Below, in pieces: positions 9,302 to 14,943 of a stretch of DNA of 64,000 nucleotides. The stretch spans positions 62,001 through 126,000 of the forward strand of contig NZ_WHVL01000007.1 of assembly GCF_020622355.1 (NCBI RefSeq), given 5' to 3'. Below the pieces are notes generated by a model. That model did no database searches, was not told where the DNA came from, and saw nothing but the letters and a program-made list of their open reading frames with translations. The position numbers and the translations under genes are program-made. This DNA comes from Vreelandella malpeensis (GTDB lineage: Bacteria; Pseudomonadota; Gammaproteobacteria; Pseudomonadales; Halomonadaceae). Position 1 is the stretch's first letter. Each line of letters starts with the position of its first letter.

Positions 9302-10366
9302 TCACTGGCCGGCCAGGCGCTCGGCGGCGGTCTTGAGAAGATGCTCGGTGGTTTCCCAGCCCACGCAGGCATCGGTCACGGAGACGCCGTAGCGCAGCGC
9401 CCCGGCGTCGAGCGCCTGCTTGCCCTCGTGAAGATGGCTTTCGAGCATCAGCGCCACCAGGTCGGTATCGCCTTCGCGCCGCTGGTCGAGCACGTCGAGC
9501 ATCACCTCGCTCTGGCGGCGGTGATCCTTGCGCGCGTTGGCGTGGCTGCAATCGACCATCAGCCGCGGGTTCTGCCCCGCCTCGCGCAGCCGGGCGGTGG
9601 CGGCGCGCACGTGATGCGCCTGATAATTGGGCTCGCCGTGGCCGCCACGCAGCACCACGTGGGTGTGCGCATTACCGGCGCTCTGGCGCATCACCGGGCG
9701 GCCCTGGGCGTCCTGGGCGAAGCGCTGGTGCGGGTGGGCGGCGGACTGCATGGCGTCGATGGCCACCTGCAGGTCGCCGCTGGTGGCGTTCTTGAACCCC
9801 ACCGCAGCGCGCAGGTCGCTGGCGAGCTCGCGATGGAGCTGGGACTCGGTGGTGCGCGCGCCGATCGCCACCCAGCTCAGAAGATCCTCGAGATACGGCG
9901 CGAGCATGGGCTGCAAAAGCTCCGTGGCCACCGGCAGGCCGCGTGCGGCGACGGCGTGCATCAACTCCCGCGAGCGGGTCAACCCGCGCGCCATGTCGCC
10001 TTCGCCGTTCAGGTCCGGGTCGTAGGCCATGCCCTTCCAGCCAACGGTGGTGCGCGGCTTCTCGACGTAGACGCGCATCACCGGCAAAAGCTGCCCGCTG
10101 ACTGCCTCGCTGAGCGTGGCGAGCCGGTCGGCGTACTCGAGGGCGGCGTCCGGATCATGGATCGAGCAGGGGCCGACCACGACCAAAAGCCGCTTGTCGT
10201 CGCCGGCGAGGATGCGCTGGACGGCCTGGCGCTGCCGGTCGAGTCGCTCGCTCAGGGCGGCATCGACGCGAATGCGCTCGAGCAGCTCCGCTGGCAGTGG
10301 CAGGGGCGTGGACGCCGTAGCAGAAGCTTGGAGATGGGAAGGGGTGGCGGTCATCGGTGCGTTCAT
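9302..10366 (-). CDS. aroG: Class I DAHP synthase (3-deoxy-7-phosphoheptulonate synthase)
   Basis: First step of the shikimate pathway: phosphoenolpyruvate plus erythrose 4-phosphate to DAHP, feeding Phe, Tyr and Trp synthesis. 354 residues, AroF/G/H type. Motifs include VVVGPCSIHD, VEKPRTTVGWKG, KNATSGD and DCSHANARKDH. Which amino acid inhibits the enzyme cannot be read from the sequence, so the symbol aroG is by class only. The ATG at 10366 has a weak ribosome site and lies 4 nt after the stop of a short upstream frame (10371-10526), suggesting translational coupling. The 490-nt leader upstream holds two aromatic-rich short frames and two strong hairpins. Confidence 0.95.
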   Translation of the reverse strand: MNAPMTATPSHLQASATASTPLPLPAELLERIRVDAALSERLDRQRQAVQRILAGDDKRLLVVVGPCSIHDPDAALEYADRLATLSEAVSGQLLPVMRVYVEKPRTTVGWKGMAYDPDLNGEGDMARGLTRSRELMHAVAARGLPVATELLQPMLAPYLEDLLSWVAIGARTTESQLHRELASDLRAAVGFKNATSGDLQVAIDAMQSAAHPHQRFAQDAQGRPVMRQSAGNAHTHVVLRGGHGEPNYQAHHVRAATARLREAGQNPRLMVDCSHANARKDHRRQSEVMLDVLDQRREGDTDLVALMLESHLHEGKQALDAGALRYGVSVTDACVGWETTEHLLKTAAERLAGQ

Positions 10367-10370
10367 GGTT

Positions 10371-10526
10371 TCAATTCTCGTTCGGCAAGGGACATCGGGT
10401 TTCGGTTGTGCCACCCACGTTGGCCCGGCCGGAGGTGGCTGCCTGTTCCGACCGCGCGACGCTAAATCGCCAGCCATAACCATACCCCTGGATGAAGGCA
10501 GCGAAAGCGTTGGTGTAAGCGGTCAT
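10371..10526 (-). CDS. Candidate leader peptide 2 of the DAHP synthase gene
   Basis: A 51-codon frame starting at ATG 10526 with a strong GAGGAG site 9 nt upstream. Its first third is packed with aromatic residues: AFAAFIQGYGYGWRF contains three Phe, two Tyr and one Trp, with a further Tyr at position 4. The remainder (SVARSEQAATSG and on) is unremarkable. It ends TGA at 10371, just before the DAHP synthase ATG. Within the frame, GCTGCC (about 10502-10507) can pair with GGCAGC, which itself overlaps GCCACC that can pair with a downstream GGTGGC, so two structures would exclude each other. It could also be a genuine small protein. Confidence 0.6.
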   Translation of the reverse strand: MTAYTNAFAAFIQGYGYGWRFSVARSEQAATSGRANVGGTTETRCPLPNEN

Positions 10527-10572
10527 GGTGCAACTCCTCGATGAAAGTGTCGTGAATCCTCGGGTACCCGAA

Positions 10573-10614
10573 ACGCAAGAGCCCCGGCGGGTCGTCCCGC
10601 CGGGGCTCTTGCGT
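10573..10614 (-). terminator. Long hairpin between the two leader frames; candidate attenuator
   Basis: A perfect 19-bp GC-rich stem (ACGCAAGAG...CTCTTGCGT ends) with a 4-nt loop ACGA. On the minus strand it is followed only by TT then CGGG, so the U-tract is poor. It lies between leader frame 1 and leader frame 2, where an attenuator would sit. Termination is inferred from stem strength and position. Confidence 0.55.
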
Positions 10615-10634
10615 TCGGCAGGCAACCGGGTCTC

Positions 10635-10677
10635 GGTATGCCTGCGGGCGCGGCTAGGCGCCCGCCCTCGGCATACC
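10635..10677 (-). promoter_or_regulatory. Hairpin overlapping the end of leader frame 1
   Basis: GGTATGCC pairs with GGCATACC, and an inner GCGGGCG pairs with CGCCCGC, making a long stem. The loop CCTAGCCG contains the UAG stop codon of leader frame 1. A ribosome that reaches the stop would therefore melt this hairpin, while one stalled at the aromatic codons 7-20 nt upstream would influence only its 5' arm. This arrangement fits ribosome-mediated control. Confidence 0.6.
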
Positions 10678-10776
10678 GGGGCTAAACCAATAGACGTACT
10701 GACCGAACACGCACGCTGACCGCGCCGTCAAGCGAGGCGCGATGAGAGTCAGCGGTGCGTGAGTCAGAGAAGTCAT
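10654..10776 (-). CDS. Candidate leader peptide 1 of the DAHP synthase gene
   Basis: A 40-codon frame from ATG 10776 to TAG 10654. It begins MTSLTHAPLT and carries FGQYVYWF at residues 24-31: two Phe, two Tyr and one Trp codon within eight codons, at about 10684-10707. All three aromatic amino acids are represented, which matches the three end products of the pathway controlled by the gene downstream. The ribosome site is weak (GGACGACACC before ATG). A candidate promoter lies about 50 nt upstream and the stop codon sits in the loop of a strong hairpin. The role as an attenuation leader is inferred from composition and position. Confidence 0.65.
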   Translation of the reverse strand: MTSLTHAPLTLIAPRLTARSACVFGQYVYWFSPGMPRAGA

Positions 10777-10893: not shown

Positions 10894-11688
10894 CTATTTC
10901 GCCGGGCGCGGGGCGTAGGCGAAGACATCCGAAAACAGCCGCTGCGCGCTCACCCCGTGAGCCTCGAGCACGTCCACGCAGGCGTAGACCATGCCCGGTG
11001 AGCCGGAGAGATAGACATCGCACTCGGCGACGGCCACGCGGGCATCGTCGAAGCCGAGCGTCGGCAGCGCCCGCTCGAGCACGTCGTCGATGCGCCCCTG
11101 GTGATGAGCGATGCGCGGGCTCTCGGCCAGCGGCCGGGCGAGTTCGAGCTCGGTGACCGCGTGAAAATGGACGTTATCGAAGCGCGCCGCCCAGTCGCTG
11201 GCAAGCTGCTCGGCGTAGAGGTCGTCGTGCTCGCGAGCCGCCCACCAGATGAACACGCCGCGCCTGGGCTGCGCTTCGAGCACCGCCTCGACGATCGCCT
11301 TCATCTGGGCAAACCCGGTGCCGGCGGCAATCAGCAGCAAGGGGCGCGTGCTCGTCATGTCGAGCACGCACTCGCCGCCGGGCAGGCGCACGTCGAGCTC
11401 GCCGGACAGGGTCAAGAGCCTGCGCAGTCGGGCGGAGTTTTCACGCTCCGGGCGGTGCTGGATGTGAAGTTCAATCACGCCATCCCCCCGACGGTGGCTG
11501 GCGATGGAAAACGGCACCCAGGTGTGTGAGTCGAGCGCGAGCTCGAGGTACTGGCCCGGCAGATGGTCTATCGCCGCCGGGTCGCCCTTGAGGGTGACAC
11601 CCAAAACGCTCGGGCTCAAGTCGACGACATCGATGATCTGACAGGTAACCGTTTGACGCGCGGGCGCGCTCGGCGTCGTTGTGCTCAT
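10894..11688 (-). CDS. fre: NAD(P)H-flavin reductase Fre
   Basis: Reduces free flavins with NAD(P)H and supplies reduced FMN. Ferredoxin-reductase-like fold, 264 residues. Visible motifs are WVPFSIAS (flavin-binding RxxS-type region), LLLIAAGTGFAQMKAI (nucleotide binding, GTG(F)AP-like) and CDVYLSGSPGMV near the C-terminus. ATG at 11688 with AAGAGG upstream. It follows ubiD on the same strand after 34 bp, as in E. coli. UbiD needs prenylated FMN made from reduced FMN, so the pairing is functionally sensible. Confidence 0.92.
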   Translation of the reverse strand: MSTTTPSAPARQTVTCQIIDVVDLSPSVLGVTLKGDPAAIDHLPGQYLELALDSHTWVPFSIASHRRGDGVIELHIQHRPERENSARLRRLLTLSGELDVRLPGGECVLDMTSTRPLLLIAAGTGFAQMKAIVEAVLEAQPRRGVFIWWAAREHDDLYAEQLASDWAARFDNVHFHAVTELELARPLAESPRIAHHQGRIDDVLERALPTLGFDDARVAVAECDVYLSGSPGMVYACVDVLEAHGVSAQRLFSDVFAYAPRPAK

Positions 11689-11722
11689 GAAAGCCTCTTG
11701 TGAAAATTCGTTCGCGATCGGT

Positions 11723-13219
11723 TCAACCGCCGTGGCGCGAGGCGGGAAGCTCGATGCCGATACCCAGCGACTCCCAGCGCTCGTCGACCCGCGCCTTGAC
11801 CGCCTCATCCATGACGATGGGCGTGCCCCACTCGCGGTCGGTCTCGCCGGGCCACTTGTTGGTGGCATCGAGTCCCATCTTGGAGCCGAGCCCGGAAACC
11901 GGCGAGGCGAAGTCCAGATAGTCGATCGGCGTGTTCTCGACCATCACGGTATCGCGGGCCGGGTCCATGCGCGTGGTGATCGCCCACATCACGTCTTCCC
12001 AGTTGCGCGCATCGACATCGTCGTCGAGCACGATCACGAACTTGGTGTACATGAACTGGCGCAGGAAACTCCATACCCCCATCATCACGCGCTTGGCGTG
12101 GCCGGGGTACTGCTTCTTCATGGTGACCACCGCCATGCGGTAGGAGCACCCTTCCGGCGGCAGGTAGAAGTCGACGATTTCCGGAAACTGCTTGTTGAGG
12201 ATCGGCACGAACACTTCGTTGAGCGCCACACCCAGGATCGCCGGCTCATCCGGCGGACGCCCGGTGTAGGTCGAGTGGTAGATCGCATCACGCCGGCGGG
12301 TCATGCGCGTGACGGTGAACACCGGGAAGGTGTCGACCTCGTTGTAGTAGCCGGTGTGATCGCCATAGGGGCCTTCCGGCGCCATATCGTCGGGGTAGAT
12401 GAAGCCTTCGAGGATGATCTCGGCGGAGGCCGGCACTTCGAGATCCGCGTGGTGACACGCGACCAGCTCGGTGCGCGAGCCTCTCAAGAGCCCGGCGAAG
12501 GCGTACTCGGAGAGCGAGTCCGGCACCGGAGTTACCGCACCCAGAATCGTCGCCGGATCGGCGCCGAGCGCCACCGCTACCGGGAAGGGTTCGCCGGGAT
12601 GCGCCTTCTGGAACTCCTGGAAGTCCAGCGCCCCACCGCGGTGGGAGAGCCAGCGCATGATCAGGCGGTTCTTGCCGAGCTTCTGCTGACGGTAGATGCC
12701 GAGGTTCTGGCGCTTCTTGTGCGGCCCCTTGGTGATCACCAGCGGCCAGGTAACCAGGGGGGCGGCGTCGCCGGGCCAGCAGTGCTGGATGGGAAGCGTG
12801 TCGAGATCGACCTCGTCGCCTTCGAACACCACCTCCTGCACCGGCGCCTTGCGCACCACCTTGGGTCCCATGCTCAGCACCTGCTTGAAGATGGGCAGCT
12901 TCTCCCAGGCATCCTTCAAACCTTTGGGCGGATCCGGCTCCTTGAGAAAGGCCAGGAGCTTGCCGACTTCGCGAAGCGCGCTCACCGACTCCTGCCCCAT
13001 GCCCAGCGCCACCCGTTCCGGCGTGCCGAACAGGTTGCCCAGCAGCGGCATGTCGTGGCCCTTGACGTTCTCGAACAGAAGCGCCGGGCCGCCGGCGCGC
13101 AGGGTACGATCGCAGATTTCGGTGATCTCCAGGTAAGGATCCACCTCCACCTGGATTCGCTTGAGTTCACCGCGCGCCTCGAGGGCGGCGATGAAATCTC
13201 GCAAGTCGTTATATTTCAA
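11723..13219 (-). CDS. ubiD: 4-hydroxy-3-polyprenylbenzoate decarboxylase
   Basis: Decarboxylates the polyprenylated benzoate ring in ubiquinone synthesis, using prenylated FMN. 498 residues, full length. It matches E. coli UbiD closely throughout: [14 protein letters not shown] at the start, [35 protein letters not shown] (catalytic glutamates) and [19 protein letters not shown] near the end. The start is a TTG at 13219 with AAAGG upstream; the N-terminal match to UbiD supports it. It lies between rho and fre on the same strand. Confidence 0.97.
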
Positions 13220-13252
13220 AAGCCTTTCCCCGTTCTTTCGCGCTGACCTGCC

Positions 13253-14512
<1,260 letters not shown>

Positions 14513-14943
14513 CGGTGTGTTAGAAACTTGCTCATGGAAGCTGGCGCCAGGCGCCGGGAATAAGACAGGAGGCGTTGACGTTCCGCCAGATGATGCGTTC
14601 AGATCCCGCTGGAAAGGTCGAGCGATAGAGCCGTTCACGCCAGGGCGCAGGCCATGCTCGACGAAGGTGCTTTACATCTGATTGGTACGACCTGACCCGG
14701 GTGCGGGCAGGGTCAACGGGCTCTGACGACTTGGAATTCCGGCCGGTGTTGGAAGGTTCCAGGCTGAAGCCTTGAATCGGGGGCGACGAAACGGTGCGCT
14801 GTTCGACGGGCCACCCGGTCAGCCGTTTGGAACGGGCCAGTAGTTCGATGGTAGTCAAGCCCCGCGACAAACGCAAGCCCCGGGCAATTGACAACGGTCG
14901 CGAGGCCACGCAACCTTGCCCTAGACCACTGGAAGGATCCCGC
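14513..14943. other. Intergenic region between divergent rho and ppx
   Basis: 431 bp with no convincing gene. The rho side contains a GGCGCC-A-GGCGCC element (about 14542-14556) and no good minus-strand promoter that I could place. The ppx side has a candidate promoter at 14888-14916. In many relatives trxA precedes rho; no thioredoxin gene is present here. Confidence 0.5.
14888..14916 (+). promoter_or_regulatory. Candidate promoter for ppx
   Basis: A perfect TTGACA at 14888-14893, a 17-bp spacer, then a weak CAACCT -10 at 14911-14916, about 28 bp before the ppx ATG. Confidence 0.4.

Follow-up and report, generated by a model that had tools for sequence, protein, structure and literature searches.

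Tandem aromatic leader peptides with a predicted five-strand RNA switch and a pseudoknot upstream of DAHP synthase in Vreelandella malpeensis and relatives: a putative attenuator of shikimate entry

The 64-kb stretch of DNA analysed here (the window) comes from a Halomonas/Vreelandella-type genome and carries on its minus strand a class I DAHP synthase gene, separated by 527 nt from a flavin-reductase-like gene. The gene had already been taken for a DAHP synthase in the first-pass annotation, and the profile scores bear this out and place it in class I (NF009395, 482.9 bits; TIGR00034, 422.3 bits), with the ATG at 10366. Among the relatives found that bear a name, Halomonas sp. 707D7 (L034) is the nearest, with 96% identity in DAHP synthase. 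Besides this gene, the genome holds two more PF00793 matches, which are a second class I paralogue (L001) and what reads as a KDO8P-synthase-like protein (L003); no convincing leader was found upstream of either. On the 5' side of the first leader, the minus strand at 10894-14638 encodes a Rho-like protein, a UbiD-like decarboxylase and the flavin-reductase-like protein, the Rho and UbiD assignments being read from translations. Neither a T-box nor a known riboswitch reaches the Rfam gathering score at the leaders, and the only gathering-level Rfam match of the window lies elsewhere, a t44 RNA (RF00127, 37201-37321, minus strand, 68 bits). A simple scan for terminators and promoters, which demands at least five T in eight bases for a terminator, listed neither.

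The short frame proposed in the first-pass annotation is present as described. It runs for 40 codons from the ATG at 10776 to the TAG at 10656-10654, encodes MTSLTHAPLTLIAPRLTARSACVFGQYVYWFSPGMPRAGA with FGQYVYWF at residues 24-31, and has its stop codon within the loop of a strong hairpin. The hairpin consists of the outer arms GGUAUGCC (10677-10670) and GGCAUACC (10642-10635) plus an inner helix, and it is real and strong; its role, however, seems to be that of the upstream part of a five-strand switch, with the terminator lying elsewhere (10615-10572). That terminator-like strong hairpin and a second aromatic leader (10526-10371) had been missed in the first reading. The second frame has its own SD and reads MTAYTNAFAAFIQGYGYGWRFSVARS..., with the aromatic leader sequence MTAYTNAFAAFIQGYGYGWRF... 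The features are collected in Table 1, where the two frames are designated leaders 1 and 2. The U-tract of the window terminator is weak (UUGCGUUUCGGG); Pseudomonas-like copies have a strong one, the stem being followed by UUUUGUUUUUU.

Table 1. Positions of the genes, leader frames and putative RNA elements in the window
Feature	Position	Strand	Remarks
Class I DAHP synthase (aroFGH type), putative regulated gene	9302..10366	-	TIGR00034, NF009395, PF00793
Leader peptide 1, 40 codons, putative attenuator sensor	10654..10776	-	kept in 163/167 family upstreams, 0/501 shuffles
Strand 1 (GGUAUGCC), 5' outer arm of 1:2	10670..10677	-	covariation; starts 9 nt after first base of UUU
Strand 2 (GCAGGCAUACC)	10635..10645	-	GGCAUACC part pairs with strand 1, GCAGGCA part with strand 3
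Strand 3 (CGGUUGCCUGCCG)	10616..10628	-	10624-10618 pairs with strand 2, 10622-10616 with strand 4
Strand 4 (CGGCGGG), terminator 5' arm and putative antiterminator partner of strand 3	10596..10602	-	covariation, folding
Terminator hairpin 4:5, 20 perfect pairs, loop ACGA at 10595-10592	10572..10615	-	covariation, folding
Leader peptide 2, 51 codons, ...FIQGYGYGWRFSVARS..., SD GAGGAG	10371..10526	-	UGA stop abuts ATG of DAHP synthase
UGG CGA UUU A, in-frame W-R-F	10463..10472	-	exact in 62/64 Halomonadaceae rows, 90/90 Pseudomonas-like
Pseudoknot S1, 5' strand (CGCGGUCGG)	10448..10456	-	covariation
Pseudoknot S1, 3' strand (CCGGCCGGG)	10424..10432	-	covariation
Pseudoknot S2, 5' strand (GCCACC), within S1 loop	10434..10439	-	covariation
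Pseudoknot S2, 3' strand (GGUGGC)	10410..10415	-	covariation

Conservation was evaluated in 167 Halomonadaceae upstream regions, which represent two overlapping collections rather than 167 independent genomes; 80 of the matches from one search were fetched. L091-L113, labelled non-Halomonadaceae by number, were excluded, whereby the Halomonas sequences L092 and L094 were lost too; the window stands in for L004. Counts were made after merging identical segments (126, 145 and 122), and the alignments were picked for diversity: A2 with 44 of 166 sequences for the switch helices, A1 with 64 of 141, and A3 with 52 of the 64 in A1, from which the mis-anchored L183 was left out.

A YWF-type run near the stop codon, parsed as YWF, WYGYF, YWRWF or WYWF at 3-14 residues before the stop, occurs in 163 of the 167 upstream regions and in none of 501 dinucleotide shuffles or 167 reverse complements. 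Since the parser requires such a run, the presence of all three aromatic residues in every leader-1 frame is largely built in. The six codons preceding the last three of the run, which are independent of the parser, contain on average 2.43 Phe, Tyr or Trp codons with a minimum of 1 (145 distinct frames), and the same frames have 0.038 per codon farther upstream. Over the last nine codons, leader 1 has 5.35 aromatic codons, about three of them imposed by the parser, versus 0.67 in the other two frames. The alignment of family upstream regions suggested in the first-pass annotation was carried out and shows the aromatic run and the hairpin to be conserved while neighbouring positions drift. In the own and nearest genera (73 sequences), dN/dS is 0.52 for the codons preceding the aromatic run; after WF it is 1.23, which implies that RNA structure, not the peptide, is constrained there. 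The last aromatic codon, UUU (10686-10684 in the window), is identical in all 44 rows of A2, and its spacing to strand 1 is fixed, with no gap across these rows. A single leader with YWRWF, assigned by the parser to leader 2, precedes DAHP synthase in L142, L144 and L145 (f1 g19).

An unguided helix scan of the 44 diverse sequences returned the switch helices as its five top-ranked helices, with 1:2 appearing as an outer and an inner one. They form a chain of four mutually exclusive helices, namely 1:2, 2:3, 3:4 and the terminator 4:5. For the termination set (2:3 and 4:5), 90.7% of the cells are paired versus 82.9% in shuffled alignments, with a score of 0.272 versus 0.143; the antitermination set (1:2 and 3:4) gives 88.2% versus 80.0% and 0.289 versus 0.157. 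None of 500 shuffles, a control that leaves relatedness among the sequences in place, matched the percentage or score of either set, and one of 500 matched the pair-type count of 2:3 and 4:5. When the partner strands were slid, the scores were at most 0.107 for 2:3 and 4:5 and at most 0.088 for 1:2 and 3:4. The putative mutually exclusive antiterminator is, in this sense, backed by covariation, with the 3:4 pairing of the window in a register shifted from the consensus register that was counted. A six-strand his-like model with a 0:1 hairpin, derived from single folds, was dropped because that hairpin is absent from the helix scan.

The parser for leader 2 asked for W-R/S together with four or more aromatic residues. 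The UGGCGAUUUA-like anchor of this leader is found in 141 of the 167 family upstream regions, and both leaders in 138; among the controls, the parser accepted 5 of 501 shuffles and none of 167 reverse complements, and TGGCGATTTA occurred in 2 of 501 shuffles. The CGA codon is near-invariant in leader 2, yet DAHP synthase and three genes nearby use it for just 5 of their 120 Arg codons. An H-type pseudoknot of 9 + 6 pairs is predicted 7 nt downstream of the UGG-CGA-UUU-A 10-mer, a distance that stays gapless in 63 of 64 rows. In Halomonadaceae, 95.4% of its cells are paired versus 85.5% in shuffled alignments (score 0.323 versus 0.140; 0 of 500 shuffles), 11 pairs have changes on both sides, and slid partners score at most 0.094; both crossing helices of the putative pseudoknot are thus supported by covariation in this family. 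Past UUU, the leader-2 frame continues without a stop for 28 codons or more in 135 of 142 sequences, compared with 58 and 73 in the other frames. In 45 of 57 loci its stop is placed between -1 and +10 nt relative to the start codon of DAHP synthase; this set excludes L166 and L065, where no DAHP synthase start was found, and some of its starts may be mis-set (for example L143, L169). The open frame and the proximity of its stop to the ATG therefore make translational coupling of leader 2 and DAHP synthase likely, as far as can be judged from sequence.

Two further observations concern the codons of leader 2. A second in-frame CGA is often conserved near the stop (10397-10392 of the minus strand in the window), as CGA UGU in many Halomonadaceae and as CGA ACA in Pseudomonas-like copies. 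The leader 2 of L267 (f38 g139) contains a direct duplication, UGG CGA UGG CGA UUU, that is, W-R-W-R-F.

When the order was searched with a covariance model built on leader 1, 75 of 390 genomes gave a match, spread over 26 of 142 genera. DAHP synthase is present in 37 of the 38 inspected loci of the order that have leader 1, including the window and other Halomonadaceae. Across the class, 10 of 369 genomes matched: four of the own order, two of f207 at full length and four partially. The two f207 sequences (L280 and L281, another order) have DAHP synthase in the locus, and leader 2 was not found there; the full-length matches suggest either deeper ancestry or transfer. Loci having leader 2 with an in-frame W-R-F number 14 of 15 in the own family, 13 of 13 in f21, 4 of 9 in f43, 2 of 4 in f20 and 3 of 5 in f38; the six loci of f39, f36, f7 and f207 yielded none. 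The W-R-F triplet occupies the same relative place in the five families, its presence itself following from the searched anchor.

Of 109 genomes from a single Pseudomonas-like genus, 90 were read upstream of DAHP synthase, mostly the better-scoring ones, and those with a paralogue of about 50% as best match were excluded. Leader 1 is present in 89 and leader 2 in 90, always with TGGCGATTTA (90/90), W-R-F again following from the searched anchor; in the controls, leader 1 was found in 0 of 180 and TGGCGATTTA in 2 of 180. A GGTGGC-like strand stands at the pseudoknot position in 79 of the 90 leaders, and the other 11 are different, often shorter, and lack one. The 79 are too conserved for covariation, S1 being seen as five pairs with one double change and S2 falling outside the top 18 helices. 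A covariance search for leader 2 matched 3 of 369 genomes of the class, all of them Halomonadaceae, 22 of 390 of the order and 18 of 198 of f21; the last value is an undercount, because direct reading gave leader 2 in all 90 loci of one genus. The tandem leaders are old and are not confined to Halomonadaceae. Leader 2 was not found in 14 Salinicola-type copies (L085-L087 and L151-L161; Salinicola, f1 g4), which retain leader 1 and could serve as natural single-leader controls.

To evaluate how a translating ribosome may influence the switch, we folded the leader RNA with the ribosome taken to occupy 9 nt starting at the first A-site base; 11 and 13 nt were also tried. With 9 nt covered and the window RNA extended to the end of strand 4, an A-site at Phe24, Tyr27, Tyr29 or Trp30 yields 0.77-0.98 for 1:2 and 0.73-0.96 for 3:4. 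An A-site anywhere from Ser32 through the stop yields 0.00 for 1:2 and 0.85-0.99 for 2:3, except for 0.64 at Met35. The 44 sequences, folded to strand 3 at the same cover, give 0.73 for 1:2 and 0.03 for 2:3 with the A-site on UUU, and 0.01 and 0.69, respectively, two codons beyond it. The boundary of the flip in the window is Phe31 at 9 nt; Phe31 is already past it at 11 nt and Trp30 at 13 nt, and over the 44 sequences 2:3 at UUU amounts to 0.03, 0.27 and 0.59 for 9, 11 and 13 nt. Therefore Phe31, and perhaps Trp30, may not be stall sites, as the flip depends on the assumed cover.

The equilibrium switch is not clean. At 9 nt, 33 of the 44 sequences still have 3:4 above 0.5 when the ribosome is one codon beyond UUU, as do 19-24 of them at later positions, and in the window 3:4 is about 0.62 at Met35 (9 nt), Gly34 (11 nt) or the stop (13 nt). 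Before strand 4 is made, 2:3 outcompetes 1:2 in the window RNA when naked and at most early stalls, implying that a rearrangement would be needed. The complete window RNA adopts the terminator fold in every state (0.95-0.99), and the choice of fold must therefore be kinetic. Naked RNA extending to strand 4 gives 0.86 for 1:2 and 0.84 for 3:4 in the window, and 0.75 and 0.70 over the 44 sequences. An untranslated leader 1 is thus predicted by the folding model to read through, unlike that of E. coli trp.

We consider that leader 1 is very probably a ribosome-mediated attenuator that ties entry into the shikimate pathway to the charging of tRNA-Phe, tRNA-Tyr and tRNA-Trp, with leader 2 as a second checkpoint, a reading drawn from sequence and folding models. 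The attenuator part is favored because the leader frame, the covarying exclusive helices and the position before DAHP synthase are all conserved. A ribosome stalled at an aromatic codon would halt just short of strand 1, so that hairpin 1:2 would be kept, strand 3 would be free to pair with the 5' arm of the terminator (3:4), and transcription would read through. A ribosome that has moved beyond the aromatic run would melt 1:2, whereupon strand 2 would capture strand 3 and the terminator would form. The first-pass annotation had proposed that a ribosome senses all three aromatic amino acids; frame conservation and the covarying helices support it, and the sensing itself we infer from codon content and geometry. 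Leader 2 may represent a further checkpoint on the same mRNA, at which a ribosome would decode Tyr, Trp and Phe codons, including UGG-CGA-UUU, and melt the pseudoknot. Termination of this ribosome would take place right on the start of DAHP synthase, so that the two translations are probably coupled.

What leader 2 contributes can be worded more specifically. We tentatively put forward, as quite possible, a two-stage sensor of aromatic tRNA charging, ancestral in Pseudomonadales, that combines a default-on attenuator, whose terminated product is P15 (see below), with a pseudoknot-gated leader 2. UGG-CGA-UUU-A would set the ribosome at the mouth of the pseudoknot, and its passage and the unfolding would set DAHP synthase translation via the overlapping stop. 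It is also possible, though somewhat less likely than not, that leader 1 acts as proposed and that leader 2, translated but sensing nothing, is only a spacer through which the translation of DAHP synthase is coupled to a pseudoknot that stays folded permanently. The predicted accessibility of the start region is 0.43-0.51 in all seven pseudoknot and ribosome states (56 sequences, folding only). This independence of pseudoknot and ribosome position fits a spacer, as does the near-neutral dN/dS of 0.86 after W-R-F; dN/dS before W-R-F is 0.51, however, a Tyr codon lies within the 11 codons ending with W-R-F in 122 of 122 distinct frames although the parser does not demand it, and W-R-F keeps its relative place across five families, all of which argue against a non-sensing role. 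Masking of the SD by the pseudoknot was rejected as a candidate mechanism, since the equal accessibility in all states leaves simple sequestration unsupported.

With regard to leader 1, it seems unlikely that the attenuator follows the E. coli trp scheme, with the stall blocking 1:2, and that the covarying helices have been misassigned. In the Pseudomonas-like copies, the 5' arm of the hairpin holds the Gly-Tyr-Trp codons GGG UAU UGG, as in trp, and hence the geometry of the switch is not uniform; in the window, moreover, 1:2 is blocked as early as Trp30 when the ribosome is taken to cover 13 nt. In Halomonadaceae, by contrast, the last aromatic codon precedes strand 1, at a spacing fixed in 44 of 44 rows, and four chained helices covary rather than three. 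Neither termination of the untranslated leader nor blocking of 1:2 by the stall, which define the trp sub-type, was found in the folding.

That leader 2 serves for programmed frameshifting or bypassing, with UGG-CGA-UUU-A as shift site and the pseudoknot as stimulator, we also consider improbable. The near-invariant 10-mer in E/P/A frame and the gapless 7-nt distance to the pseudoknot in 63 of 64 rows would suit such a cassette, and the title of one paper reports a frameshift in B. subtilis cdd at CGA AAG. The 10-mer is, however, no X-XXY-YYZ heptamer, frames +1 and +2 end anywhere, and the 10-mer is kept in short leaders that have no recognisable pseudoknot. DAHP synthase has no fixed frame with respect to leader 2 (27, 17 and 13 of 57), and a fusion of the two by frameshifting was therefore rejected.

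The attenuator reading offers an answer to the identity of a catalogued RNA. In Pseudomonas-like loci, the stretch that reaches from the end of leader 1 across the terminator stem is matched by Rfam family RF00627, 'Pseudomonas sRNA P15'. This holds for 20 of 20 taken from the 90 loci above, all of them scoring above the gathering threshold, and for 8 of 8 belonging to a separate scan of 18 loci from several families. In that scan P15 exceeds its gathering score in 11 loci, namely 8 of 8 Pseudomonas-like, 3 of 6 f43 and none of the other four. The seven below it are three of f43, one of f20, one of f207, the Salinicola-type copy and the window, which scores 21.9 bits where the gathering score is 70 and is therefore not filed as P15. 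The P15 consensus UauUuuGGGuauuGG reads Tyr-Phe-Gly-Tyr-Trp. P15 has been confirmed by Northern blot, and to our knowledge no function has been assigned to it. A passage of Livny 2008 (PMC2527527) suggested, on grounds of synteny, a possible riboswitch role for P15. Most simply, P15 can be read as the transcript that results from termination at the leader-1 attenuator. That it is a free-standing trans-acting sRNA, as its typing as a gene in RF00627 and the extent of that family over leader 1 and the terminator stem would have it, with the short frame incidental, is very improbable in view of the aromatic frame in 163 of 167 upstream regions and 0 of 501 shuffles, the covariation of alternative helices instead of one fixed fold, and DAHP synthase in 37 of 38 inspected loci.

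If the preferred reading is true, the first committed step of the shikimate pathway is under a testable control that reads three end products, also in Pseudomonas-like genera, and the engineering of strains for aromatic products in Pseudomonas and Halomonas would gain a clear target. Leader 2 would be a conserved ribosome-facing element, with a near-invariant triplet and, in Halomonadaceae, a pseudoknot, for which we found no name. Ribosome-mediated attenuation is textbook knowledge, and a DAHP synthase leader is already known in Corynebacterium. In the open-access literature, outside which many of the older attenuation papers lie, we did not find the tandem, sensing of three aromatic amino acids, a five-strand switch with default read-through, or the identity of P15; DAHP is not mentioned in the main texts of PMC2965389 and PMC1262725.

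Among known systems, P15 shares its locus with leader 1 in Pseudomonas-like copies, but it is typed as an sRNA gene. IncI-type plasmids have the RepY/RepZ arrangement of a leader frame, a pseudoknot and a translationally coupled gene, which are the features shared with leader 2; control of the SD by the pseudoknot, as in RepY/RepZ, is not seen in leader 2 at the accessibility of 0.43-0.51 given by folding only. DAHP synthases of E. coli are controlled by TyrR, TrpR and feedback, and the first-pass annotation had regarded a leader of this kind before a DAHP synthase as unusual. E. coli trpL, pheL and hisL are leader-peptide attenuators; leader 1 shares with them the control codons, the competing helices and the intrinsic terminator. 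The trp and phe cases also appear in the passages seen of a review (PMC11802643), and these contain a precedent for a DAHP synthase leader: the aroR leader of the C. glutamicum aroF (DAHP synthase) operon, which has Phe-Tyr-Phe codons and reads through on Phe limitation. Compared by this description, aroR is like leader 1 in being an aromatic-codon leader peptide before DAHP synthase; it differs from the tandem in that the passages mention neither Trp nor a second leader, and it belongs to another phylum. According to the same passages, aroR is unaffected by the availability of Tyr in spite of its Tyr codon, so that the presence of Phe, Tyr and Trp codons is no proof that each is sensed.

Of the traits by which attenuators of the trp, phe and his type are recognised, leader 1 shows clustered codons for the product, a pathway gene downstream, an intrinsic terminator and a covarying antiterminator. 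In E. coli trp, the stall blocks 1:2 and the untranslated leader terminates, whereas leader 1 is predicted by folding to behave in the opposite way on both points. The E. coli attenuators each have one leader for one amino acid, in contrast to the three amino acids putatively sensed and the fifth strand at the present locus.
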